Source: Deltaproteobacteria bacterium
GTDB taxonomy: Bacteria > Desulfobacterota > Desulfobulbia > Desulfobulbales > SURF-16
DNA length: 64,000 nt
Assembly (NCBI GenBank): GCA_016219175.1
Contig: JACRCD010000021.1
Span: forward strand, 1 to 64,000
Direction: 5' to 3'
Under the pieces are notes generated by a model. The model did no database searches. It was not told where the DNA came from and saw only the letters and a program-made list of their open reading frames with translations. Numbering within the stretch: position 1 is the first letter of the stretch; each line of letters starts with the position of its first letter. This document shows, piece after piece, positions 2,096 through 21,558 of this stretch. Position numbers and translations under genes: made by a program.

Positions 2096-5000
2096 TCACG
2101 CCTGCCAACCGTTGGCAACGATAGTCATCAGCTGCTCGTTGTTTCTGACATCATTTACCGAACTCAGGGTGATCCCCTCATTCACCGCAAAGGCGGCCAT
2201 GTCCTGAATGATCCGGTTGATATCGGCGCCACCGAGATAGGAACCATCCACCAGATCAACTTCATCCACCATGTAGTTGGCGTTGGTGAAGAAGTTGCTG
2301 ACGCTCACCTTGTCGAGGTCGCTGTAGCCGATCTCCAGGTTGTTGCCGTTGCGGAACAGCCCGACACCGCTTTGATCAATGCCCTCGCCGAAGGATACGG
2401 CATCTAAACCGGTGGTGTCGTAATTGTTGATGGTGTCGGCGCCGTCACCGAGATTAAAGCAATAGGTATCGTCCCCGTCTTTCCCTGTCAGGGAGTCATT
2501 GCCGCCATTGCCGCTAATGATGTCATCGGCGGCAGAGCCGATCACCGTGTCGCAGCCAAGGCCGCTCTCTATGTAGGCGATATTGACCAGTGTGGTGTTG
2601 CTCAGATCAATGACATTGCCGTAGTCAGTGCCGGCGATACTATTGGCGCCTGCGCCGCCGTCAATTGTCTCAACGGTGTTGATCCCGCTGAAGTTGCTCA
2701 GGCGGATGACATCGTCGCCATCACCGCCCTGCACCGTATCAAAGCCGTCGCCGCCGTTGAAGGTGTCGTAATCATCATCAACCCCCTCAAGCAGGAAGAG
2801 GTCGTCGCCTCCACCGCCCTGCAGATTATCCTGGCCACCACCGCCGCTAATGATGTCATCGGCGGCAGAGCCGATCACCGTGTCGCAGCCAAGGCCGCTC
2901 TCTATGTAGGCGATATTGACCAGTGTGGTGTTGCTCAGATCAATGACATTGCCGTAGTCAGTGCCGGCGATACTATTGATGCCAGCGCCGCCGTCGATCA
3001 TCTCAACGCTGTTGGTCCCGCTGAAGTTGCTCAGACGGATGACATCGTCGCCATCACCTCCGAGTACCGTGTCAAAGCCGTCATCGCCGGTAAAAATGTC
3101 GTAATCATCATCAACCCCCTCAATCAGGAAAAGGTCGTCTCCTCCACCGCCCTGCAGGTTGTCCTTGCCGCCACCGCCGATGATGATGTCGCCAGCGGCA
3201 GAGCCGATCACCGTATCGCCGCCAAGGCCGCTTTCTATGCGGGCGATATTCATCAGTAAGGTGTTGCTCAGATCGATGGTGTTGGCGTAGTTATCGCCTT
3301 CGATACTGTTAATGCCCGCGCCGCCGTCGATCATCTCGACGGTATTGACCCCGCTGAAATTGCCCAGGCGGATGACATCATTGCCCACGCCGCCCTGCAC
3401 CTTGTCAAAGCCGTCGCCGCCGCTCACGGTATCGTAATCATCATCAACCCCCTCAATCAGGAAGAGCTCGTCTCCTCCATTGCCCTGCAGGTTATCCCGG
3501 CCGCCACCGCCGATGATGATGTCGTTGCCGGTAAAACCGATCACCGTATCGCCGCCCAGGCCGCTTTCTATGCGGGCAATATTCACCAGGATGGTTTTGC
3601 TCAGATCGATGGTGTTGGCGTAATTATCGCCGGCGATACTATTAATGCCCGCGCCGCCGTCGATCATCTCAACGGTGTTTTCCTCGCTGAAGTTGCTCAG
3701 GCGGATGACATCGTCGCCCGAGCCGCCGAGCACCGTGTCAAAACCGTCGCCGCCGCTCACGGTGTCGTAGGAAATATCGGCGCCCTCAATCAGGAAGATG
3801 TCGTCTCCTTCATTACCCTGCAGGGTATCCCGGCCGGCAAGCCCTTCGATCACGTCACGCCAGACTGTGCCCACCAGGCTGTCGCCAGCTGCCGTGCCGA
3901 CAATGTGATTGGCGACATCCAGAACGAAATCATCACTGGCGCTGGCTCCTTCCGTGTCCGTGACAGTGACGCACACATTCCACAGCCCGGCGGAAACCGA
4001 GGTTGGTGTGCCGCTGAAGGTGCGGGTCCCGGCATCGAAAACCAGCCAGGACGGCAATGCCGAGGCGTCGGCCAGGCTGGCGGTGCAGGTGAGCCAGTCA
4101 CCCGCGTCCACGTCCGCAAACGCATCTGCTGGAACCGTAAAGCTGAAAGCACTGTTTTCCAGGGCGGATTGCCCGGGAATATGAGTCGCGACAAAGGGGG
4201 CGTCATTGACATTGGCGATCTCCAAGGAAAAGCTGACGACCGCGAGCGCACCCGCCGTATCGGTTGCAGTCACGGCCACCTCCAGGTTCCCGACATCGCT
4301 GTTGGCCGGAATGCCGCTGAATGTGCCGGTAACCGGGTCAAAGGCGAGCCAGCCGGGCAGGGCATCACCATTGCCAAGCTTTGCTGAGTAGGTTAATGAG
4401 TCCCCGGCATCCACATTGCTAAAGATGTCCGCGGGAAACGTGAAGCTGTATGCCACATCCTCCAGCGCCGCCTGATTCTCCGGCAGCACGGTCACCACCG
4501 GGGCGGTATTGGCCAGGGCAAACAGGCTGGCCTGGCTGCCGTCGGCAAAGTGCAGGGTGTCCGCCACCAGCGAGCCATTGTTGCCGAAACGGTCAAAATC
4601 CTTGAGCCGCAGGGCGTCACCCTGCTCCCCCACGTGAATCAAGAGATCACCGTCAAGGTATTCAAGAGCGAGATCACTCGCCGCGATGCCCGTACCGAAG
4701 GTGAGACGATTTCCCTCCCCGGCGCTCGACACGTCCTCAATAATATCCTGCCCGTCGCCGAGGTTGAAGAGATAGGTGTCGTTGCCGGCTCCCCCAACAA
4801 GCACGTCGTCTCCTTTGCCGCCGGCCAGCGTATCCGCGCCTTCATCTCCGGTGATCCGGTCATGGATGGCCGTGCCGGCCAGCCAGTCATCACCCGCCGA
4901 GCCCCGGATATCGAAGCCGCGCTGGAGCAGGTCGGCCATGGTAAGTACGGTTCCATCGGCGAATTGGAATGTTTCAATGACAGAGGAGTTGAGCGGCTCA

Positions 5001-7420
5001 GCCGGATTGAAATCCTCGATGTGAATCGCCTCTCCCTGCTCGCCGACCCGCACCAGCAGTGAGCCGAGGCCGAGGGACAGGGAATCGGAGGTGATCCCGT
5101 CGCCGAATTGAATGGTATCCGTTCCACCGCCATCCACGATCCGGTCGACACCGTCGCCCGGATTAAAGATATAGGTGTCGTCTCCGTCCCCGCCGGACAG
5201 CAGGTCATTGCCCGCGCCGCCTTGCAGGATATCGTTGTCCGCGGAACCGGTCAGAACGTCATCGCCGCCGGTGCCGATGAGGACAGCTTCGTTTGCCGCT
5301 TCATTGGCCAGGGTTGTCAGGTGGTCAGCGTCCCATACGGCGCCGTCGCCAAATTCCACGCCATCGAGACGCCAATATTGGCCATAATTCGGATCGAAAA
5401 AACCGGTAATGGTCAACGTGTCGTTTGTTGCCGCGATGGACAGCACCAGATCGTTGCTGTTGTCATTGGCATACCTGGCAAGAACCTCGGACGGGGCCAC
5501 ATCCGGCAGGAGTTGGACAACACTGTTGGCGTTGCAATACTGGTCAAGGCTGTAAACAGTGTCGTGACCGTAGCCACGGCCGAAAACATAAATATCATCG
5601 CCGTCGCCGCCATTGAGTGTATCGTTGCCCGCCCCTCCGTCCAGCAGATCGGCGCCCGCACCGCCATCCAGGATATCATCACCCGCGCCGCCAGAGAGCT
5701 GGTTGTCGCCGTCGTAAGCGTATAAATAGTCGTTGTCGTTCCCGCCGTCCAGGACGTCATCGCCGTTACCGCCATAAAGATAATCGGTTGCCGAGGAGCC
5801 GCTCAGGCTGTAAAAGGGAGTCAGCGCCATCAGTTCAGGAGCGGATAATACCGTGCCGTCTCCAAAGGCAACATCAAGCTGACCGTATCTGCCGCCGAAC
5901 CAGTTAGTCAAAGTGAGCTGATCGCCGTTCGTCCCCACCTTGACGATGAGATCATTGCCGGACTTGCTGAAACCGGTGAGATCGGCGGTGGTCATTCCCG
6001 GGCCAAGGGAGAGATGGTCCTGGTCATGGTTTTGATGGTCATTGATGATATCGATGCCGTCTCCAATAGTGAAGACGTAAGTGTCATCGCCTTCACCGCC
6101 GGCGAGGCTGTCATTGCCGGTGCCGCCGTTCAGGGTGTCAGCCATATCATTTGCTAAATCAAAGGTGTTTCCCCCAGACGAGGTGTCGCCAAACAGTTGG
6201 TCGTTCCCATCTGCGCCCAGCAGCACATCCCGGCCCGCGCCGCCATACAGGATGTCGTCGCCACTCCCGCCATCCAGCCGGTCGTCCAGCACCCCATCCC
6301 ACCACATTAAGGGCTGCGTGTCATAACCTTCCGTGTCGCCGTACAGCAGATCATCGCCATCCCCGCCATCGAGCCAGTCACAGCCGATGCCCCCCACCAG
6401 CAGGTCTGCTCCCCCTTTGCCGAGCAGAATCTCATCGCTCCAGTATTCCGAGCTGACCAGGGTGTCATCTCCTTCCGCACCGGCCAGGATCGGTCCCTCC
6501 AGACCGGCAGCCCTGTCGGCCAGATCCGAAACATCCCACACCGTGCCGTCAGCGAATTCCAGCTGTTCGCCCCGGCTGGCGGCGGCCATCATACTTCCGA
6601 ACCAGCTACCGAGAGTCAGGCTGTCTCCGCTGGCGCCGATAGCGAGGACAAGATTGTCGCCGTCCCGGCTTACGGTAATGTCTGCCGATGTAATACCCTC
6701 ACCGAGTCGGATAATATCCGGGTTAAACCAGTCAACTCGATACTCAAGATCATAGTTGCCGTTGTATATGACGTCGCCGCCATCCCCGGTATCGAAGAAA
6801 TAATATTCCTTACCTTCTCCGCCGTACAGGGTGTCGTTGCCGGTGCCGCCACGCATGATGTCGTTGCCCCGGTCGCCGTGCAGCTCATCGTTGCCGGCGC
6901 CACCGGTCAGGATGTTGTCGTCCTCTCCCTCACCGGTACTTCCCTGCCAATTGCCATAGAGGACGTCGTCGCCGTCATCCCCCTGGATGGTGTCGGAGCC
7001 GATGCCGCCGAAGAGGGCGTCGTTGCCGGCGCCGCCGGCCATCAGATCATCGCCCTCAAATCCTTCGAGCCGGTCATTGCCGCCGTAACCGGTTATAGTG
7101 TCTGCCAGATAAGTTCCATAGAGGTAATCCCCCCCTTCCGTGCCGACCATTAGTGCGGGCAGCAGGTCCATGACCTCCCATACCGTGCCGTCACTGAATT
7201 CCAGTTGCTCGATACCGGCGGTGATTTTGCCCTCAAAATTGCCGTAATAGTGATATCCCCCGAAGTAGGAGATATCCAGCACCAGCTGGTCACCGTTACC
7301 GGGGGTGGTCAGGGTAAGAGAATATCCGTCCCATTTAAGATGGAGATCAGCAGGCAAGATGCCATCGATGAAACGGACGATGTCGATGTCGCCCTGGTAG
7401 TTGGCCGGATCAATGTCCAC
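2096..7420 (-). CDS. Giant RTX protein, C-terminal part (downstream of an in-frame TGA)
   Basis: The frame is open from base 7507 down to 2096 (1803 codons); 7420 is the first ATG, but no ribosome site precedes it. The gene at 7508-10369 is in the same frame, separated by a single TGA, so this is the C-terminal two-thirds of one lysozyme-RTX protein. It consists of many GGxGxDxLx calcium-binding nonapeptide blocks and interleaved haemolysin-type beta domains (GDQLTLTNWFG). Two cadherin-like/He_PIG domains follow (around 3.9-4.5 kb), then four 111-residue repeats, a last RTX block and a C-terminal end of the type I secretion kind (SSVNDVRNNEQLM). If the TGA is real, this half lacks the lysozyme head but keeps the export signal. 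Independent translation is unlikely; it is either read through, decayed, or the stop is a sequence error. Confidence 0.75.
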   Translation of the reverse strand: MDIDPANYQGDIDIVRFIDGILPADLHLKWDGYSLTLTTPGNGDQLVLDISYFGGYHYYGNFEGKITAGIEQLEFSDGTVWEVMDLLPALMVGTEGGDYLYGTYLADTITGYGGNDRLEGFEGDDLMAGGAGNDALFGGIGSDTIQGDDGDDVLYGNWQGSTGEGEDDNILTGGAGNDELHGDRGNDIMRGGTGNDTLYGGEGKEYYFFDTGDGGDVIYNGNYDLEYRVDWFNPDIIRLGEGITSADITVSRDGDNLVLAIGASGDSLTLGSWFGSMMAAASRGEQLEFADGTVWDVSDLADRAAGLEGPILAGAEGDDTLVSSEYWSDEILLGKGGADLLVGGIGCDWLDGGDGDDLLYGDTEGYDTQPLMWWDGVLDDRLDGGSGDDILYGGAGRDVLLGADGNDQLFGDTSSGGNTFDLANDMADTLNGGTGNDSLAGGEGDDTYVFTIGDGIDIINDHQNHDQDHLSLGPGMTTADLTGFSKSGNDLIVKVGTNGDQLTLTNWFGGRYGQLDVAFGDGTVLSAPELMALTPFYSLSGSSATDYLYGGNGDDVLDGGNDNDYLYAYDGDNQLSGGAGDDILDGGAGADLLDGGAGNDTLNGGDGDDIYVFGRGYGHDTVYSLDQYCNANSVVQLLPDVAPSEVLARYANDNSNDLVLSIAATNDTLTITGFFDPNYGQYWRLDGVEFGDGAVWDADHLTTLANEAANEAVLIGTGGDDVLTGSADNDILQGGAGNDLLSGGDGDDTYIFNPGDGVDRIVDGGGTDTIQFGDGITSDSLSLGLGSLLVRVGEQGEAIHIEDFNPAEPLNSSVIETFQFADGTVLTMADLLQRGFDIRGSAGDDWLAGTAIHDRITGDEGADTLAGGKGDDVLVGGAGNDTYLFNLGDGQDIIEDVSSAGEGNRLTFGTGIAASDLALEYLDGDLLIHVGEQGDALRLKDFDRFGNNGSLVADTLHFADGSQASLFALANTAPVVTVLPENQAALEDVAYSFTFPADIFSNVDAGDSLTYSAKLGNGDALPGWLAFDPVTGTFSGIPANSDVGNLEVAVTATDTAGALAVVSFSLEIANVNDAPFVATHIPGQSALENSAFSFTVPADAFADVDAGDWLTCTASLADASALPSWLVFDAGTRTFSGTPTSVSAGLWNVCVTVTDTEGASASDDFVLDVANHIVGTAAGDSLVGTVWRDVIEGLAGRDTLQGNEGDDIFLIEGADISYDTVSGGDGFDTVLGGSGDDVIRLSNFSEENTVEMIDGGAGINSIAGDNYANTIDLSKTILVNIARIESGLGGDTVIGFTGNDIIIGGGGRDNLQGNGGDELFLIEGVDDDYDTVSGGDGFDKVQGGVGNDVIRLGNFSGVNTVEMIDGGAGINSIEGDNYANTIDLSNTLLMNIARIESGLGGDTVIGSAAGDIIIGGGGKDNLQGGGGDDLFLIEGVDDDYDIFTGDDGFDTVLGGDGDDVIRLSNFSGTNSVEMIDGGAGINSIAGTDYGNVIDLSNTTLVNIAYIESGLGCDTVIGSAADDIISGGGGQDNLQGGGGDDLFLLEGVDDDYDTFNGGDGFDTVQGGDGDDVIRLSNFSGINTVETIDGGAGANSIAGTDYGNVIDLSNTTLVNIAYIESGLGCDTVIGSAADDIISGNGGNDSLTGKDGDDTYCFNLGDGADTINNYDTTGLDAVSFGEGIDQSGVGLFRNGNNLEIGYSDLDKVSVSNFFTNANYMVDEVDLVDGSYLGGADINRIIQDMAAFAVNEGITLSSVNDVRNNEQLMTIVANGWQA
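2511..3840 (-). repeat. Four tandem 111-residue (333-base) repeats within the RTX protein
   Basis: The units recur at 333-base spacing with the signatures DNLQGGGGDDLFLIEG and IESGLGGDTVIG. Bases 2511-2645 and 2844-2978 are identical over 135 bases, so the last duplication, or a gene conversion, is very recent. Confidence 0.85.
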
Positions 7421-7507
7421 ATCGTAATAGTCGGAAATAAAGTCATAACCTGATCCGGGCGCAAAAAGGTAGACGTCGCTGCCGAGGCCGCCATAGAGAA
7501 AGTCGCG

Positions 7508-7510
7508 TCA
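7508..7510 (-). other. In-frame TGA splitting the lysozyme-RTX gene
   Basis: The frame reads DTLIGGA, TGA, RDFLYGGLGSD. An RTX repeat expects Gly at the stop position, so a single GGA-to-TGA change explains it. The base after TGA is C, the leakiest UGA context known in bacteria. Confidence 0.85.
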
Positions 7511-10369
7511 GGCGCCGCCGATCAAGGTGTCGTTGCCAGCGCCACCGAACAGGTAATCATTGCCGGCTTCGCTGATGATCGCATTATCTCCATCATCGCC
7601 ATACAGCGTGTCACTGCCGGTACTGCCGGCGATTAGTCTCCCCCACAAGGGGATTGTCGTCAGCAGTTCCTCCTCTGTAAGTTTGGCGCCGTCGGCAAAG
7701 GAAAAAAGCTCAATGGGGTGCTGATTGGTGGTAAACCAGTCAATAAAGGTGAGAAGGGTGCCATCGCTGTAACGCAAAGTCATATCCGGGCCACATTTAA
7801 ACAGACTCAATGACGAAGGATTGTACCCCATTCCCATAAGCACGGTATCATAGCCGCCAGGGTCGGGCTGTATGATGTCCGCCCCACCGTCAGGGGCGAA
7901 GAAATAGGTGTCGTCCCCCATTCCGCCATCCAGAGTGTCTTCTCCAGCATTGCCCTCGAGCCAATCATTGCCCGCCCCGCCGGCCAGATAATCATCACCC
8001 CCACCGCCGAACAGCGCGTCATGGTCCGCCTCGCCCGAAAGGATGTCGTTGCCAGCCCCGCCGCTAAGCAGGTCACAGCCGGCCCCGCCGCAGAGCATGT
8101 CGTCGCCTGGATTCGAAGCGTCGTGAACCATGTCGAAGTTGTTCAATGTAACCTGGGGGACATATCCTTCCTCGGCAAAGGTCATCTGAAAAGTAATAGA
8201 TGCAATCTTCTCCGCCAATTCAGAGACATAGAACCAGCCTATGTTGTGGGTGCTGTCACCATAGAGCAGATCATTGCCGTCGCCGCCGAAAAGCAGGTCC
8301 GCGCCGTTACCGCCGCTGACGACATCGTTGCCGCTGTCTCCCATCACGGTGTCGTCGCCATCGTAGCCTTCCACGAGATCATCATCCTCGCCGCCGGAAA
8401 CAAAGTCGTCACCGAAATATCCGCCAACGACATCCTTGCCACCCTCGCCCAGCAGGATATCGTCTCCGGCGATTCCTTCCCAAGGGTTCAACAAGGCGTA
8501 ATACTCCGAGTCATCTGTGAGCCATATAACCTCCCCGATAATGTAATCAATGCCGTTGCCGCCAGTGATATAATCGTTGCCAGCCAAACCGCAGAGGTAA
8601 TCGTTCCCCTCGCCGCCGTCGATCCTGAGATTGGGCGGATCGCCGGTCAGGAAGAACTCGCCGTAACCATCCATAAAGTTACAGCCGCCCGGAGGGTTCA
8701 CCGTGCCCCTGAAGCAATAAACTCCCCTGTGGCTACCGGTGCTGGTGCGGAATACGATGCCTTGGGTGTCATCGTCGAAAGCCGTGCCGGCCAGAACCCG
8801 GTCCACTTCCGCCGGATCAAACAGGGTGATACCGAAATCGCCGCTCTCAAAATCCGCGGCGCTGGTCTGGTTGGCGAAGGTGACGCTGTCCGTGCCGTTT
8901 AAGACCAGATGGCCGGGGGAGTTGAAGGTGAGGGTGAAGTTGCTGTCGCTCAGGGAACGGTAGGTGTTGGTTCCTTCCTCCCGCACAAAGCCGCCGGCCA
9001 GGATTTGGCCCTGGTAATAGATAAAATTGCGGCCCGAGTCTACGATGGTGTCGCCGCCTTCGATGACGTAGGTGTCTATCCCGTCGCCCCCGATAAGGGT
9101 GTCGTCACCAGCGCCGCCATTAAGGTAGTCATCTCCGGCGCCGCCTTCCAGTATGTCGACATTTTCATTCCCATAAAGAAAATCCGATCCGCCTTCACCA
9201 AAAAGGTGGTCATTACCGGTGCCGCCCTCAAGCCAATCGGATTCCCCTGATACTGTATCCGTGATACCGTTGCCGCCAAAAAGAATATCGTTACCGGCTC
9301 CACCCTTAATGACGTCGCTGCCGCCTTCCCCTATCAGAATGTCATTCCGGTCGCTGCCGATCAAGCCAGGATTCTTGTAATTCGGATCATATATACCAGT
9401 ATTAGCCACCCGGCCTGGATCAAGATATACATCCGTTGACAGATAGTCAGAAGTACTCAGATTCAGGCCGGGATTGTTTGCATTCAGATCGGCAAGGAGG
9501 GCATTCTTGGCGGGGATGAGGGCTTCAACCAACGTATCGACTGCCGCATCCCCGGGCAGGTTGTATTCGGAATTCGCTAGAGCGATCATATTGCGTTGTC
9601 CACTACTGCCGTCCGGATTCACGCCGTATAGCGCTTCATATTCCAATATTTTAGTGCGATTCAGTTCAAGCATTCTGAATGCACTTTTTGCTTCTTCAAG
9701 CTGTTGGGTAGGAGTCAGTTGCGAAGCATCGCTATACAGACCGAACATTTGGGCTTCGTAATAGCGGCGTTTTGCGATGCCCTCTCGAAGGTTTAGTTCG
9801 CCACCGTTCGAATGATAGCGGATCTCATACCAGGCCTCGGCCCTGTTGCCTTGGACCATCGCGTCACCTAACCCCTTGCCGAGCAGGTCGGGACTGTTCC
9901 ACGCCAGCGATAATAATGTGATCCGTTCGCGTGACGGGGGAATCGTCCCCAGACCGTATTTTGCCGCCCACGCGTCGACAAAACTCTCATAGTCCTGCGC
10001 CAATCCGTCATTCCCATTTGGGCCGTTGAATCCCTCCTTGACTTGATCGACGGAGGTGAACTCGAATGCCTTTCCCAGGATTTTGTAAAGGTCATCTTGA
10101 ATCGCCTCATCAGTATCACCGTTGTGCTGCACCCCCAAATATGAAACAAGGCTATCAATTATCTCATGATCGGTGATCCCCAACGCCGACAGCACATGAC
10201 TACGGACATTGGCATCCGAGAGATTGTAACCAACCCCGATGGTCACATTACCCTTGCCATCGTTGTAAGGCTGCAATTTCTCTACTCCGTTTCGCTCTTC
10301 GATCCGCAGGAGGGTATTGTAGCGGTCCGCCAGATAACTGTTTGTTGTCTCGTTGTACGGGAAACTCAT
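7508..10369 (-). CDS. Lysozyme (GH24-like) - RTX protein, N-terminal part
   Basis: Residues 1-230 resemble phage-type lysozyme (GH24). The motif LLRIEER supplies a Glu (E25) matching T4 lysozyme E11, and YNDGKGNVTIGVGY supplies D37 and T43 matching D20 and T26. Muramidase activity against peptidoglycan is therefore likely. A helical linker follows, then RTX nonapeptide repeats from about residue 330 to the end. There is no signal peptide. The frame stops at one TGA and resumes in the same frame for 1803 more codons; the joined product would be about 2757 residues and carry the C-terminal export signal. The start is certain: the site AAGGAGGAG lies just upstream, and the ATG overlaps the stop of the lysozyme-inhibitor-like gene (ATGA). 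Bases 8618-8970 are shared with the neighbouring lipase gene. Confidence 0.82.
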   Translation of the reverse strand: MSFPYNETTNSYLADRYNTLLRIEERNGVEKLQPYNDGKGNVTIGVGYNLSDANVRSHVLSALGITDHEIIDSLVSYLGVQHNGDTDEAIQDDLYKILGKAFEFTSVDQVKEGFNGPNGNDGLAQDYESFVDAWAAKYGLGTIPPSRERITLLSLAWNSPDLLGKGLGDAMVQGNRAEAWYEIRYHSNGGELNLREGIAKRRYYEAQMFGLYSDASQLTPTQQLEEAKSAFRMLELNRTKILEYEALYGVNPDGSSGQRNMIALANSEYNLPGDAAVDTLVEALIPAKNALLADLNANNPGLNLSTSDYLSTDVYLDPGRVANTGIYDPNYKNPGLIGSDRNDILIGEGGSDVIKGGAGNDILFGGNGITDTVSGESDWLEGGTGNDHLFGEGGSDFLYGNENVDILEGGAGDDYLNGGAGDDTLIGGDGIDTYVIEGGDTIVDSGRNFIYYQGQILAGGFVREEGTNTYRSLSDSNFTLTFNSPGHLVLNGTDSVTFANQTSAADFESGDFGITLFDPAEVDRVLAGTAFDDDTQGIVFRTSTGSHRGVYCFRGTVNPPGGCNFMDGYGEFFLTGDPPNLRIDGGEGNDYLCGLAGNDYITGGNGIDYIIGEVIWLTDDSEYYALLNPWEGIAGDDILLGEGGKDVVGGYFGDDFVSGGEDDDLVEGYDGDDTVMGDSGNDVVSGGNGADLLFGGDGNDLLYGDSTHNIGWFYVSELAEKIASITFQMTFAEEGYVPQVTLNNFDMVHDASNPGDDMLCGGAGCDLLSGGAGNDILSGEADHDALFGGGGDDYLAGGAGNDWLEGNAGEDTLDGGMGDDTYFFAPDGGADIIQPDPGGYDTVLMGMGYNPSSLSLFKCGPDMTLRYSDGTLLTFIDWFTTNQHPIELFSFADGAKLTEEELLTTIPLWGRLIAGSTGSDTLYGDDGDNAIISEAGNDYLFGGAGNDTLIGGA
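8618..8970 (-). repeat. 353-base direct repeat, copy in the lysozyme-RTX gene
   Basis: This matches 11796-12148 without gaps and with only scattered differences. It encodes the module with TYRSLSD, FDPAEVD and TVNPPGGCNFMDGYGEF. Confidence 0.9.
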
Positions 10370-13541: not shown

Positions 13542-13720
13542 GTGTTTCTCCCTTTCTATGCTTCAGTAAGTTTTGACTATTTTGATGTGTGATCCATCAT
13601 GCGTCGTCCAATAGAATCGCCAGGACTGATCCATGCCCCTTTGTAATAAACCAACTCCTCGCAGTTCACGTTTGGCTGCGTCTTCTTCGGATCAAACGGC
13701 TCCCGGACAAAGACGCGAAG
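13160..13720 (-). repeat. Duplicated cassette segment, downstream copy
   Basis: This covers the lipase 5' part, the 35-base spacer and the lipoprotein 3' end. It is nearly identical to 14640-15190 at an offset of 1471 bases, with a small indel inside the lipase part. Confidence 0.85.
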
Positions 13721-14326
13721 ATGTTGCACGTCCGGGTGTTTCGCTTCAGCATTAATCTTTTTGATCTCCTCGGCTGGTACAGGGCCTGGATATTCACGCA
13801 AACGGTGTTCGAATTTTCTCACCAATCCGCTGATAACAACGTTTGCCTCCTTGAACTCATCAGGAAATTCCTCCTGTGGTATCCGCCGCCAATCCGCTCC
13901 GTCGTACTGGAAAAACACGTATGGCGGATTCGGTCTGCCCCATTTGTTGTACGCGATGCAACCCGCCGTGGTGGTGGCGAGGTAAACCGCATCGCCTTTA
14001 AGGTAGAGGCCCAGGGGCAACAGACTTGCATCATCCATGGTGATGCCATAGGTGCTTTCCCAGGTGATTTTCTGCTTGGTGGTTGGATGGGTAAAAGAGA
14101 TAACGTGCTCCGCCACGGGTGTATCCTGGCCAATCTCGTGGCGGCCGCCGCGGGTTTGCGATCGCTTCACAACAATTTTGCGCCCGTCATCAAGTTGTAT
14201 TTCTTCCTGCCAGCTCCCTCCGAGATGGAAGGGAAAATCCCCTGTCAGAGCACAGCTTGAAAGGGCAACAAGCAATACCGCAACCGCAGCGCTCATCCCT
14301 ATTCGGGATATCTTCCTATATATCAT
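13577..14326 (-). CDS. Lipoprotein B, candidate lipase immunity protein
   Basis: The start is placed at 14326 (MIYRKISRIG) because GGAGGAAAG lies just upstream; an earlier in-frame ATG at 14344 has no such site. A hydrophobic segment ends in the lipobox LSSC (C25). The 249-residue product belongs with lipoprotein A: both share WGRPNPPYVFF in the middle and an almost identical last 45 residues (REPFDPKKTQ, NVNCEELVYYKG, GDSIGRRMMDHTSK), while other stretches differ strongly. I do not recognise the family. Its position directly before a lipase, in two copies of the same cassette, suggests it shields the cell envelope from that lipase. Confidence 0.78.
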   Translation of the reverse strand: MIYRKISRIGMSAAVAVLLVALSSCALTGDFPFHLGGSWQEEIQLDDGRKIVVKRSQTRGGRHEIGQDTPVAEHVISFTHPTTKQKITWESTYGITMDDASLLPLGLYLKGDAVYLATTTAGCIAYNKWGRPNPPYVFFQYDGADWRRIPQEEFPDEFKEANVVISGLVRKFEHRLREYPGPVPAEEIKKINAEAKHPDVQHLRVFVREPFDPKKTQPNVNCEELVYYKGAWISPGDSIGRRMMDHTSK

Positions 14327-14388
14327 GTCACTTTCCTCCAACAAATAACTCTCTCTTGCCTTAACCTAACTTTCAACAGTATCGTATC

Positions 14389-15012: not shown

Positions 15013-15190
15013 GTGTTTCTCCCTTTCTATGCTTCAGTAAGTTTTGCCTATTTTGATGTGTGATCCATCATGCGCCGTCCAATAGAGTCGCCAGGACTGA
15101 TCCATGACCCTTTGTAATAAACCAACTCCTCGCAGTTCACGTTTGACTGCGTCTTTTTCGGATCAAACGGCTCCCGGACGAAGACGCGGA
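14640..15190 (-). repeat. Duplicated cassette segment, upstream copy
   Basis: This is the partner of 13160-13720 and shows that the lipoprotein-lipase pair was duplicated in tandem. Confidence 0.85.
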
Positions 15191-15773
15191 GGTATGGTTC
15201 CAGACGGCGGTTTTCCTCTTTGACTGTGGATGCGGGCTGAATGCCGGAGCGGTGTGCATGTTCGGGCCGCCCGATAATCACATTCGTCACCGTGAACTCC
15301 TTTGGGAATTCCTCCAGCGGTATTCGTTGCCATGAAGTTCCGTCGTGCTTGAAAAACACATAGGGCGGATTGGGACGTCCCCAGTGGTTGTATGAAATAC
15401 ATCCCGCCGGGTAGGTGGCGATGTAAGGTACGCCATTGAGAAAATCCAGCATGATCAATGTCAGGCTGGTGCCTTCCGGCGGGTTACGTCCATCGTTTTT
15501 CCAAGTCACTTGCTGTTTCGTGCCCGGAATGGTGAATTCCCACTCTTCCTCGCACAAGGCCCGGGAGCGGCTGTCAATGGTCGGATAACCACCATACCTT
15601 TGAGAACGCTTCGCGATCAAGGTCGTGCCGTCATGCAACAGTACCTCCTCCTTCCAGCTGTCGCCCAGTCCTAGCGGATTATCCTTGGCCAAGGTCATGC
15701 AACCTGCAAAAGTGCTGAGCAAAACCGCCAGCACAACACCTGTTACAATTTGTGATATTTTCGGGTATTTCAT
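15048..15773 (-). CDS. Lipoprotein A, paralogue of lipoprotein B
   Basis: The start at 15773 (MKYPKISQIV) follows AGGAGGT by a normal distance; the ATG six bases earlier overlaps the ribosome site. The lipobox is FAGC with C25. The 241-residue protein shares WGRPNPPYVFF and a nearly identical C-terminus with lipoprotein B, but residues 45-90 and 150-190 differ. That pattern fits either gene conversion at the 3' end or diversifying selection on the variable parts. Its lipase partner (14536-15012) is broken, so this may now be an orphan immunity gene that still protects against related lipases from kin. Confidence 0.78.
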   Translation of the reverse strand: MKYPKISQIVTGVVLAVLLSTFAGCMTLAKDNPLGLGDSWKEEVLLHDGTTLIAKRSQRYGGYPTIDSRSRALCEEEWEFTIPGTKQQVTWKNDGRNPPEGTSLTLIMLDFLNGVPYIATYPAGCISYNHWGRPNPPYVFFKHDGTSWQRIPLEEFPKEFTVTNVIIGRPEHAHRSGIQPASTVKEENRRLEPYLRVFVREPFDPKKTQSNVNCEELVYYKGSWISPGDSIGRRMMDHTSK

Positions 15774-15860
15774 GGCCATACCTCCTTGGCGGATTATCGG
15801 TTTTCGTCTTGGCCATCAACCTTGAGCGGTATTGTGTTTGCTGGTGAAATTTGGGCTATT

Positions 15861-17390: not shown

Positions 17391-18299
17391 ATGAAGAAAT
17401 ATGTTGTGGCGGTTTTTCTTGTCATATCAGGCATGAATATGATGATTAATGCCTACGCGGGCGACGAGGATGTGGTGGCGCGCATCGGTAAGAAGAAATT
17501 TACGCTCGCCGACTTCAATCGCTGGATGAGCTACAGCAGCGAGGAAAACCGCAAGGCCCTGGAAGGGGATCCTAAAAAAAGGGAAATGCTGCTCCGGCAG
17601 ATCGTGACAAGCATGGTGATCGCGGATCAGGCCAAAAAAACCGGCTTTGACGCGCGTAAGGACATAAAGGAAAACATGAAGCTCTTGACCGACAACTTCC
17701 TCACCCTGGAATATCTTGATATGGAAGTCGCGCGGAAAGCAAAAGTCGAAGAAGAGGAAATAAACAGGTATTACGAGGAAAATAAGTCGAAATTCGAAAT
17801 GCCCGAAAAGATCAAGGCCCGGCACATTCTGATCCAGGTCAAGAAAACAGCGTCCGAGCAGGAGCAGAAGGAGGCGAAAGCAAAGCTGGAAAAAGTTTTG
17901 CAGCGCGTCAGGGGCGGGGAAGACTTCGCAACGCTTGCCACGGAATTTTCCGAAGATCCCGGATCAAAGAAAGCAGGCGGGGATCTTGGCTTCTTCAGCA
18001 GGGGGATGATGGCCCCGGAGTTCGAGAAAGCGGCTTTCTCCCTGAAACCAGGCGAGGTAAGCGAGATTGTCCAGACAAACTTCGGTTTTCATCTTATCAG
18101 GCTTGAGGAAAGAAAGGAGCCGGTTGTTCAACCAATTTCCGCTGTCAGGGAACAGTTGACCAAGGCGCTGACGATTGAGAAGAAGAAAAAGACAGTGGAC
18201 GAATATGTTGCTAAAGCAGCCAAAGGGGCTGATGTCGAGTTCTATCTCGATGATTTCTTTGCCACAGCTGCTCCGGACCCCCACCGGAACATGAAATAA
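17391..18299 (+). CDS. Periplasmic parvulin-type peptidyl-prolyl isomerase
   Basis: A signal peptide ends at YAGDEDV, and a SurA/PrsA-like helical chaperone segment covers residues 25-138. A parvulin rotamase domain spans about 140-240, with the usual motifs ARHILIQVKK, GGDLGFFSRG, FSLKPGEVSEIV and FGFHLIRL. The total of 302 residues is typical for single-parvulin foldases of this group. It probably helps fold exported or outer-membrane proteins. The ribosome site AGGAGG is 8 bases from the ATG. It lies 91 bases after the dismutase and may share its transcript; a strong terminator follows at 18388. Confidence 0.92.
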   Translation: MKKYVVAVFLVISGMNMMINAYAGDEDVVARIGKKKFTLADFNRWMSYSSEENRKALEGDPKKREMLLRQIVTSMVIADQAKKTGFDARKDIKENMKLLTDNFLTLEYLDMEVARKAKVEEEEINRYYEENKSKFEMPEKIKARHILIQVKKTASEQEQKEAKAKLEKVLQRVRGGEDFATLATEFSEDPGSKKAGGDLGFFSRGMMAPEFEKAAFSLKPGEVSEIVQTNFGFHLIRLEERKEPVVQPISAVREQLTKALTIEKKKKTVDEYVAKAAKGADVEFYLDDFFATAAPDPHRNMK

Positions 18300-18573: not shown

Positions 18574-19137
18574 TTATACCATGGTTTTTCTCTTCTTTAG
18601 CCCGATCAGTCCGGCAAGTCCCGAACCCAGCAGGAGCAAGGAGGCCGGCAGCGGAACCGCATTCACAGTGACCGAGCCCGCGATAAAATTTTCCTGAGCA
18701 AAACTTCCGGTAAGTAAAGGGAACCCCTCGGTCAGATCGCCGAAGGTAGAGCTTGCCAGCAGCTCGGTGACACCCGGATTCAAGGCCTGGAAATTGAGGG
18801 TGGCGAGAAGGACATTATTGCCGGTCACCGGCGGGAAGCCTAGACCTGCCAGCGAATCCCCATCCGGCGCCAAGATCGGCGTCCAGGCGGGACCAATTTC
18901 CGGCGCACCCGGCATGGCGAGAATAAGGGGATCAAACGAGATATCCAAACCCCAGCCCAGCGTGGTATCCGCAAGAGGGATATCCGCCATCAGGTCAACG
19001 GCAAAGGTGTCGCCCACGTTTACCATGGGATTCTGCGGCACGAAATAGACCGTTACCGCCGCCCAGCTGCTGGCAGGTAAGAAGGGAAAGAGCCATGCCA
19101 ATAACGCCAACCAGAAAAGTCTCTTTTTTGTTTTCAT
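18574..19137 (-). CDS. PEP-CTERM protein with cohesin-like domain
   Basis: This 187-residue protein has a signal peptide (FLPASSWA). A cohesin-like beta-sandwich covers residues 28-155 (MVNVGDTFAVDLMADIPL, GWGLDISFDPLIL). A C-terminal sorting tail follows: VPLPASLLLLGSGLAGLIGL then a KKRK basic patch. The VPLPA form is the recognition sequence cut by exosortase, so the mature protein should be released or attached at the cell surface or exopolysaccharide. The neighbouring cytochrome has a dockerin tail, the natural ligand of cohesins, and both genes point the same way with 201 bases between them. The fold assignment rests on pattern similarity only. Confidence 0.85.
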   Translation of the reverse strand: MKTKKRLFWLALLAWLFPFLPASSWAAVTVYFVPQNPMVNVGDTFAVDLMADIPLADTTLGWGLDISFDPLILAMPGAPEIGPAWTPILAPDGDSLAGLGFPPVTGNNVLLATLNFQALNPGVTELLASSTFGDLTEGFPLLTGSFAQENFIAGSVTVNAVPLPASLLLLGSGLAGLIGLKKRKTMV

Positions 19138-19150
19138 TTGTTACTCCTTT

Positions 19151-19335
19151 AATTTTGATGAGCTCATAAAAAGTCACCTCGAAGCTCCCAGATGGCTAAG
19201 TAACAAAATTCGATATACAAGGCGTAGTGTATTTTTGAGAGTGAGGCAATACATGTGGTATGCCGAACGAACAAAAATGCGCTACAACGCAGTAGATCGG
19301 ATTTTTTACGACGCCATCAATTTTGATGAGCTCAT
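19151..19335. repeat. Dispersed intergenic repeat bounded by 17-base direct repeats
   Basis: AATTTTGATGAGCTCAT occurs at 19151-19167 and again at 19319-19335. Between them lies a segment whose key parts (TGGCTAAGTAACAAAA, a 32-base block at 19270-19301, and TTTTTTACGACGCC) recur in inverted orientation at 24614-24685. No reading frame is present, so it is a non-coding repeat or a small non-autonomous element. Confidence 0.7.
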
Positions 19336-19338
19336 TTG

Positions 19339-21558
19339 TCATGGCGCCGTGAAATAGCCATACCAGATCTGGTAATCAACGAAGGTGATACAGCCGTCAT
19401 TGTCGAAATCGGCGGCAGTGGCATAGCCGATCTGTCCGCTGCACTTACCGAAGGTGGCTACAAAAGCTGGGTAATCATCGCCTGTGACTGCGCCGTCACC
19501 GTTGAGATCGCCGGGCACATCCGGAATAATACCAATTCGCGCCGAGGTGGAAGCCATCAGCACCGGTTTACCCATCTCGGCGGCGGTCCAGATATTCTGC
19601 AGCACGTCGCCCCAGGTCTGGGATGCGCAGAATTCATTTGAACCGTCATAGGGATTTCTATCCGAGCAGGGGATATTGCGAGCCCGGCCGCCGAAATCCC
19701 CGGTTGCTTCGCGATCCATATTTTTCAGGAAATTGATATATTGGTCGTTAAAGGTCTGGTATTTGAGCTCCGCGGTAACACGGACCGGACCCGTATAGCC
19801 GTTGAGGTTGAAGGTGTAGGGGGTGATATCCCAGTTCTGGCCGTCCGGGTAGTCGGTGTCCTTGGGATCATGGGGAACGATGAAGGCCCCGTCAGCCATA
19901 TAGGCAGCCTTGACAAACCCGGCGGGCGGAATCCGGTTGTCCTTTTCAACATAATTCACCAGCACGAAATGGAACTCCTTGTCAAAATGGCTGACGACTC
20001 CGTCTGGCGTATAGGTAAGGGTGCCGTCATGGGGATCGCCGCTGGTGTTGTCCAGGATATTCGCTCCGTTCAGATTGAAGTTGTCATAGCCCTCGGCCAG
20101 GGCGATATGTTCATAGACCTTGGTCTCGGGGGTTCTGATCAGCGCTCCGGAAGGGGCGATCATGCCGTCTTCGAAAAGAACGTTGTCGCTTGCATCCGTT
20201 ACGGTGAGATGGATCCACATCTGACGTCCTTCGGCAAAGCCGGTCGGCAGCTTATGGCCCGAGTTGTTGGTAACCTTGACGTCCACGGTGAGAAAACCAT
20301 TGGCGGAGTTTGAGGAGACAATCTGAATCTCGGCTGCATCACGCATCAAATCCTGGCTGCGCAGTCTGGCGTTCAGGTAGGCATCCGCCCGGTCGGCTGT
20401 CACGCCGCTGTTGTAATTGAAAGGCGGATCAAGCCAGACTTTGTCAACCGCGCCCCAAAGCCGGTCCATGCCGGGATAAAGCAGCCAGGTCTGAGCCCCT
20501 TGGAATTTCATGGGCTCGTGACATTCCTGGCATTTTCCGGCGGGATCATTGCGATAGGAACTCCAGTACCACTCGGTAAAGGTCCGTTCAATGGGATGCA
20601 GCATCGGTGCTGGGGCGGCCGGGGTCTTGGTATAGATGAGAGGATTGGTTACATCGTGGCAGGTGCCGCAGAAAACGCCCTGTTCCTGAATGTCGAAAGC
20701 AGGAAAAGCTTCTCCTCCCGCAAAAAGATTGTACTGGTCCACGAAAAATCCGCCGTTGCCGTTGGCCATGGTGCTGCCGTCGTGGTTTGAGTCTCTTTTG
20801 TGATTGTCATAGGTGCGATGACAGAATCCGCATTGGACTCCCGCCATATCGGCTTCGGAATCATTGTTGGTGTCAACAGCTTGCGGGGCGCCGGGCCAGC
20901 CCGGGTATTCCTTGAATTTCGCGCCCCAGAATTGTCCCTCAAGATAGGGAAAATGGGGCGAGACGGGTTCGGAACGCCCTTCCATCCAGCCGGCGGGAGC
21001 GTGGCAGCGCAGGCAGAGATCGGCTGTTACCGGCAGTTTATCTTCCGGCAAAAGCGTAATGGGGTTTCCGGGGACACACGGGTCCGGTGAGGACGGTTCG
21101 TAAATTTTCAGGGTACAGGCCAACTCCCTTACCGTCCCCAGACCGACCAGGGAATCCAGGTCGGCGTTGTAGGTGTCGAGGCCTTGGGCCGCCGCGGCAT
21201 AGAGCAGATTGATGAAGTCCTGATTCGCCACGTTCAGGGTGGCGAAAAACGCTGGATCCCTGGCCGAATTACCCATCATCATGCCTTTCCAGTCATTGAA
21301 ATCCTCGGTTTGGCCGCCCACCGAGGCATGAAACTGGGGTGACATAATGCCCTCGATCATCGGGCAGAGATCCTGGCCCTGGTCATTGAGGACCGGACCA
21401 TTGGCGCAGGCATCAGGATTGATAATATCCAGGGGACCGCCGAAACCGCGCGGCTGGGTGGAATCGGAATCGGTGATATTGGCGGCTCCGTAACTTGCCG
21501 AAACAAAGGCGCCGGTGAAGGACAGCACCATGAAAAACTCAAATAATCGCCTTTTCAT
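19339..21558 (-). CDS. Secreted four-heme cytochrome c with C-terminal dockerin
   Basis: This 739-residue protein has a signal peptide (residues 1-25). Four CxxCH haem c sites lie at 182-186 (CLRCH), 243-247 (CGFCH), 297-301 (CGTCH) and 343-347 (CQECH). A large beta-rich region follows (LTVDVKVTNNSGHKLPTGF), of the kind seen in extracellular multiheme proteins. The last 60 residues form a type I dockerin with two Ca-binding F-hand repeats (GDLNGDGAVTGDDY and ADFDNDGCITFVDY). A dockerin on a cytochrome would let it dock to a cohesin, and a cohesin-like PEP-CTERM protein is encoded next door. The redox partner and substrate are unknown. An extracellular electron-transfer or surface redox role is inferred. 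Confidence 0.88.
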   Translation of the reverse strand: MKRRLFEFFMVLSFTGAFVSASYGAANITDSDSTQPRGFGGPLDIINPDACANGPVLNDQGQDLCPMIEGIMSPQFHASVGGQTEDFNDWKGMMMGNSARDPAFFATLNVANQDFINLLYAAAAQGLDTYNADLDSLVGLGTVRELACTLKIYEPSSPDPCVPGNPITLLPEDKLPVTADLCLRCHAPAGWMEGRSEPVSPHFPYLEGQFWGAKFKEYPGWPGAPQAVDTNNDSEADMAGVQCGFCHRTYDNHKRDSNHDGSTMANGNGGFFVDQYNLFAGGEAFPAFDIQEQGVFCGTCHDVTNPLIYTKTPAAPAPMLHPIERTFTEWYWSSYRNDPAGKCQECHEPMKFQGAQTWLLYPGMDRLWGAVDKVWLDPPFNYNSGVTADRADAYLNARLRSQDLMRDAAEIQIVSSNSANGFLTVDVKVTNNSGHKLPTGFAEGRQMWIHLTVTDASDNVLFEDGMIAPSGALIRTPETKVYEHIALAEGYDNFNLNGANILDNTSGDPHDGTLTYTPDGVVSHFDKEFHFVLVNYVEKDNRIPPAGFVKAAYMADGAFIVPHDPKDTDYPDGQNWDITPYTFNLNGYTGPVRVTAELKYQTFNDQYINFLKNMDREATGDFGGRARNIPCSDRNPYDGSNEFCASQTWGDVLQNIWTAAEMGKPVLMASTSARIGIIPDVPGDLNGDGAVTGDDYPAFVATFGKCSGQIGYATAADFDNDGCITFVDYQIWYGYFTAP

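Follow-up and report, generated by a model that had tools for sequence, protein, structure and literature searches.

The cellulosome of clostridia resembles the locus described here in its cohesin and dockerin modules, its secreted enzymes with C-terminal dockerins and its surface-anchoring part, which at our locus is a prediction. The locus differs from the cellulosome in carrying a single cohesin per anchor, with no multi-cohesin scaffoldin nearby, in having an exosortase tail where cellulosomes use sortase or SLH anchoring, and in its mostly non-cellulolytic cargo, which is distributed over parallel sets of different type. We did not find in the source genome the combination of a multi-cohesin scaffoldin, a cellulose-binding module and several dockerin glycosidases that characterizes a cellulosome.

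Non-cellulosomal cohesins and dockerins are listed in many genomes without clear partners or function. Like our locus, those of Archaeoglobus, ANME archaea and syntrophic sulfate reducers place the modules outside cellulose degradation. Passages of three papers describe cohesins and dockerins as abundant in ANME archaea and syntrophic sulfate reducers, treat them as adhesins or assign them no function, and suggest a tie of such modules to the surface and to electron-transferring consortia (PMC5244752, PMC9012536, PMC10553843); one of the three raises, as a speculation, that they might hold multihaem cytochromes in place. Cell-cell contact has been proposed for the cohesin/dockerin proteins of syntrophic sulfate reducers. 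Unlike the domain inventories and adhesin roles in those passages, our locus sets an exosortase-tailed cohesin beside matched dockerin-bearing redox cargo.

The XrtD/VPLPA-CTERM system is a third point of comparison. Tail and exosortase type agree with it, and exopolysaccharide genes lie near the exosortase; the cohesin goes beyond it in offering a non-covalent socket, through which display could extend to proteins that lack a sorting tail. In the open-access literature we found PEP-CTERM, cohesin and dockerin together in no paper, and exosortase with cohesin or dockerin only in one of the papers above, a review in which they are handled apart. Provisionally, display by exosortase-linked single cohesins, in several matched sets within one genome, is undescribed in that literature.

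Results

A cohesin with a sorting tail adjoins a dockerin-tailed cytochrome

The window (the whole stretch of DNA analysed, 64,000 nucleotides) contains a cytochrome gene followed on its 3' side by a cohesin gene, both on the minus strand and at the positions where the sequence-only reading had placed them (Table 1).

Table 1. Features of the cohesin-cytochrome locus (positions in the window)
Feature	Position	Strand	Basis
Four-haem c-type cytochrome, exported, C-terminal dockerin, 739 aa	19339..21558	-	Pfam/profile matches, alignment
Signal peptide-like N-terminus of cytochrome, about residues 1-25	21484..21558	-	sequence MKRRLFEFFMVLSFTGAFVSASYGA
Haem motif CLRCH, residue 182	21001..21015	-	motif scan and alignment
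Haem motif CGFCH, residue 243	20818..20832	-	motif scan and alignment
Haem motif CGTCH, residue 297	20656..20670	-	motif scan and alignment
Haem motif CQECH, residue 343	20518..20532	-	motif scan and alignment
Dockerin, residues 681-736, two canonical F-hand calcium loops	19351..19518	-	Pfam, phmmer, profile
Intergenic repeat element	19151..19335		about 40 other genome copies; direct repeat AATTTTGATGAGCTCAT at flanks
Cohesin-type PEP-CTERM protein, 187 aa	18574..19137	-	NCBIfam tail match, homologue search
Cohesin domain, residues 27-159	18661..19059	-	profile against PDB; predicted model against PDB
VPLPA-CTERM exosortase sorting tail, residues 161-183	18589..18657	-	TIGR03370, PF07589
PpiC-type peptidyl-prolyl isomerase, exported, convergent	17391..18299	+	Pfam

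In the 187-aa protein, a signal peptide precedes a cohesin-fold domain, which is followed by a VPLPA-CTERM tail. The Pfam Cohesin model matched neither this protein nor anything else in the genome, even at E 10. Because a single-sequence cohesin search mostly matched PEP-CTERM tails, we left the tail, together with the signal, out of a family profile built from the middle domain and eight relatives (nine members). Searched against the PDB at E ≤ 10, this profile matched 17 chains, all 17 of them cohesins (best E 2.2e-6). An AlphaFold2 model of the domain, computed from an alignment containing no known cohesins, reached a pLDDT of 80; 20 of its 21 best Foldseek matches were cohesins or cohesin-bearing chains, and VIA-align superposed about 120 of its 133 residues with Z up to 12.6 (2vo8, 1g1k). 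Immunoglobulins ranked below the cohesins in Foldseek, with TM-scores of about 0.35-0.45 compared to 0.5-0.7. The protein thus has the sequence homology of a cohesin, by the family profile, and its β-sandwich fold, by prediction. We discounted the Pfam result as proof that no cohesin is present, because family profile and fold both indicate one.

The tail scored 27.2 bits with TIGR03370 (NCBIfam cut-off 25.35) and above the cut-off of PF07589, and has the C-terminal motif, hydrophobic stretch and basic end expected of a VPLPA-CTERM/PEP-CTERM signal. The sole recognizable exosortase of the genome scored 408.9 bits (cut-off 400) with TIGR04152, XrtD, the exosortase named as VPLPA-CTERM-specific, so tail and enzyme match and the genome encodes a cognate exosortase for the tail. 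The xrtD gene adjoins an exopolysaccharide glycosyl-phosphotransferase gene. Two type II secretins scored above cut-off in the genome, and type II secretion would offer a route across the outer membrane.

All four CXXCH motifs of the neighboring protein are invariant across 10 relatives (10-row alignment), and several such motifs in an exported protein make it a multihaem c-type cytochrome. Orthologues within the genus are 76-78% identical. Residues ~291-464 have weak partial similarity to ExtKL and MtrC/OmcA-type multihaem cytochromes; with the curated models for ExtKL and OmcA-MtrC, the protein scored 19.9 bits (cut-off 250) and 15.5 bits (cut-off 209.3), placing it in neither family, and it is set apart from both by its own four haem motifs and dockerin tail. 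An AlphaFold2 model of the cytochrome, from the 10-row alignment, had a mean pLDDT of 51.

The dockerin scored 20.7 bits in one scan and 23.7 bits in the genome search with Pfam Dockerin_1 (cut-off 22.9), and matched the cellulosomal dockerin chain 2y3n_B in a phmmer search of the PDB (E 2.6e-5). In both predicted calcium loops (DLNGDGAVTGDD, DFDNDGCITFVD), the ligands are canonical: D/N occupies positions 1, 3 and 5, and D position 12, as in type I dockerins. Together with the four haem motifs and the signal-like N-terminus, these matches bear out the sequence-only reading of a secreted four-haem cytochrome ending in a dockerin; its reading of the neighbor as a cohesin-like protein with an exosortase tail agrees with the PDB profile matches, the predicted fold and the TIGR03370 match. 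Nitrospirota, Acidobacteriota and Desulfobulbaceae have orthologues of the cytochrome that lack a dockerin, and in one orthologue from another family the dockerin is N-terminal, suggesting a separate acquisition.

Both genes are under purifying selection, with dN/dS of 0.24 for the cohesin gene and 0.19 for the cytochrome gene (compared to one relative). The element between them has a repeat unit of ~155 bp, is flanked by a 17 bp direct repeat and has genomic copies that are mostly 96-100% identical over ~134 bp, many of them at contig ends. In two congeners, the gap between the genes is 31-36 bp and stands where the repeat element is found here; the element looks like a recent MITE-like insertion.

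The PpiC-type isomerase gene adjoins the cytochrome gene in two congeners too (72-77% identical). It does so as well in an Acidobacteriota genome (46% identical), where dockerin and cohesin are both absent at that place. The isomerase is likely a helper outside the cohesin-dockerin pair, possibly one dedicated to folding. Relatives of the isomerase are also encoded in the neighborhood of 8-haem cytochromes (G000:C77, G011:C9). Elsewhere in the window, positions 2096-10369 encode two large calcium-binding proteins with RTX repeats, one of 1774 aa that comes first and has putative Ig domains and one of 953 aa, and a lipase class 3 fragment is flanked by genes for paralogous small exported proteins with no Pfam match (13577-14344 and 15048-15779).

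Dockerin genes adjoin most cohesin loci

Using only the cohesin profile, we searched two sampled genome sets, one from the phylum (297 genomes) and one from the order (243 genomes), and read out 34 loci, a count that omits matches on larger proteins lacking a PEP-CTERM tail (L170, L175, L179 and L181-L183). A dockerin gene lay within 700 bp at 28 of the 34 loci, a count that leans slightly toward the 18 loci whose dockerins were added to the final dockerin profile (the first profile was built from Pfam hits in the source genome), and at 31 when the range was widened to 3.5 kb; the nearest dockerin gene was always on the same strand. By contrast, a dockerin gene lay within 700 bp at 2 of 22 control PEP-CTERM loci (Fisher p = 5e-8), and this control group includes the PEP-CTERM proteins adjoining dockerin-like genes at G000:C89 and C17, which works against the adjacency claim. 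Nine of the 34 loci are rows of the cohesin profile, some picked for having a dockerin nearby; without these nine, the fraction within 700 bp was 19/25. The sequence-only reading had suggested a search for conserved adjacency in Desulfobacterota, and the pairing is not confined to one locus; the difference between cohesin and control loci rules out that it is an accident of a single one.

Within the genus, the cohesin gene lies beside the orthologous cytochrome gene in two more genomes. The cohesin reading frame is broken in one of the two, G002, and cohesin and dockerin genes both have frameshifts in a Tectomicrobia contig; these broken frames may be assembly errors or decay.

PEP-CTERM proteins outside the cohesin profile adjoin dockerin-like genes at L046:4256-5598 (G000:C89), L138 (G001:C168) and L047 (G000:C17), and are perhaps further, more diverged sockets. 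Small proteins combining a cohesin-like domain with a dockerin adjoin a cohesin PEP-CTERM gene at L174:5336-6085, L176:3249-4034 and L213:3-692; they are possible adaptors linking anchor and cargo.

Cohesin and dockerin types change together

We compared cohesin and dockerin identities across loci and observed a Mantel r of 0.846 for all loci, which fell to 0.585 once near-duplicates were taken out (p = 2e-4 in both cases). When relabelling was restricted within genomes, the observed matching ranked 2 of 216. The clearest evidence comes from a double swap involving two loci of G018. G018:C50 resembles the source locus in its dockerin (54% identical) and its cohesin (52% identical), and the cargo there, an IgGFc-binding/hydrolase protein, has no detectable similarity to the cytochrome. 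At G018:C80, a homologous cytochrome (E 1e-30) carries a dockerin 25% identical, and adjoins a cohesin 26% identical, to those of the source locus, both closer in type to the C9 sets. In the Tectomicrobia contig, a cohesin and dockerin 56% and 63% identical to ours accompany a third, different cargo. The cohesin and dockerin types thus change jointly and the cargo independently. Such co-variation is as expected of modules that would bind each other, and linked inheritance of neighboring genes can partly account for it.

Cargo extends beyond redox proteins

At the cohesin loci of the source genome, which contain only single-cohesin proteins, dockerins are carried by the cytochrome, two multicopper oxidase-type proteins, a MauG-type di-haem protein and a 1784-aa protein. 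The order multicopper oxidase-dockerin, cohesin, MauG-dockerin at C49 is kept in G005, with the addition of a five-haem cytochrome. Redox cargo (cytochrome, multicopper oxidase and MauG-type peroxidase) is prominent in the source genus. Beyond the genus, we found a subtilase, 5'-nucleotidase-type phosphoesterases and proteins with no assigned function among the cargo, and this unrelated cargo indicates that the system is not dedicated to electron transfer. The proposal in the sequence-only reading of a new way to organize extracellular electron transfer is accordingly too narrow, since relatives carry a subtilase, 5'-nucleotidase-type proteins and an IgGFc-binding/hydrolase protein; what we observe seems to be a display system of general use, linked to exosortase, instead of one dedicated to electron transfer.

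Two dockerin proteins stand apart from the cohesin loci. We found no nearby cohesin for the GH9 protein with CBM2, CBM3 and dockerin at L050:5578-8301 (G000:C93), and there is none near a beta-helix dockerin protein on C50 of the source genome.

Exosortases are enriched in cohesin-bearing genomes

An exosortase was detected in 16 of 23 cohesin-bearing genomes, compared to 65 of 190 other genomes (the phylum sample minus eight identifiable cohesin-bearing genomes; Fisher p = 0.001). At E ≤ 1e-10, none was found in 7 of the 23, including the near-complete G018 and the congener G005, and hence anchoring by exosortase may not hold everywhere.

Discussion

We propose that a small, XrtD-sorted anchor with a single cohesin probably holds the dockerin-tailed cytochrome on the cell surface or within the matrix. 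The 187-aa protein would be exported via its signal peptide, and XrtD would recognize the VPLPA-CTERM tail, after which the cohesin would either be set free toward the outer surface or exopolysaccharide or become attached there, a step suggested by the presence of both sorting tail and cognate enzyme. The cytochrome would be exported separately and its calcium-dependent dockerin would dock onto the cohesin, as homology, adjacency and co-variation suggest, yielding a redox protein held at the surface or within the matrix. From the sequences we infer the binding itself, its dependence on calcium and the specificity of each set; localization to surface or matrix and a benefit to extracellular redox chemistry are predictions of the same model, and exosortase-sorted proteins may end up released instead of anchored. 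In this model, the genome would have several cohesin-dockerin sets in parallel, the source locus among them, and each set, with a type of its own, would display different secreted proteins, several of them oxidoreductases. The pairing proposed in the sequence-only reading is well supported, and an electron-transfer role for the source cytochrome is possible.

A more ambitious reading, which we put forward tentatively and consider rather less than probable, is that in Gram-negative Desulfobacterota mutually exclusive exosortase-sorted single cohesins serve as surface sockets that fix secreted oxidoreductases in exopolymer and so form an addressable extracellular redox layer. The cargo of such a layer would be four-haem and five-haem cytochromes, multicopper oxidases and MauG-type peroxidases, with one dockerin type per cohesin.

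The strongest competing explanation, to which we give a little short of an even chance, accepts that the pair binds and assigns it to general matrix or adhesin building or to cell-cell contact, with the redox role of the cytochrome being local (for example, detoxification or enzyme maturation). The non-redox cargo found elsewhere (subtilase, 5'-nucleotidase-type, IgGFc-binding/hydrolase) is consistent with this explanation, as are the cytochrome orthologues that lack a dockerin and the treatment of cohesin/dockerin proteins as adhesins in passages of PMC10553843. The predominance of redox cargo in the genus, namely the cytochrome, two multicopper oxidases and the MauG-type peroxidase, argues against it. 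We consider it unlikely that cohesin and dockerin bind other partners and adjoin each other simply as co-regulated secreted proteins: the GH9 cellulase-type and beta-helix dockerin proteins that have no cohesin nearby could be read in this way, but the adjacency at 28/34 loci, the types that stay matched across cargo swaps and the matching within genomes point to the neighbor as the partner. Lastly, a reading of the 187-aa protein as some generic Ig-like β-sandwich of PEP-CTERM type and no cohesin, as the silence of Pfam Cohesin even at E 10 might suggest, is very improbable given that the PDB matches of the profile are exclusively cohesins and that immunoglobulins fall below cohesins in the fold search, with lower TM-scores.

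If a matched cohesin anchor does hold the cytochrome, the locus addresses the question of how electron-exchanging consortia hold cytochromes in their matrix. Its gene order reveals partner, anchor, sorting enzyme and cargo, and the natural swaps of cargo predict which modules pair. Specificity and anchoring are directly testable from the matched loci, and the matched pairs would serve for enzyme display on Gram-negative cells.
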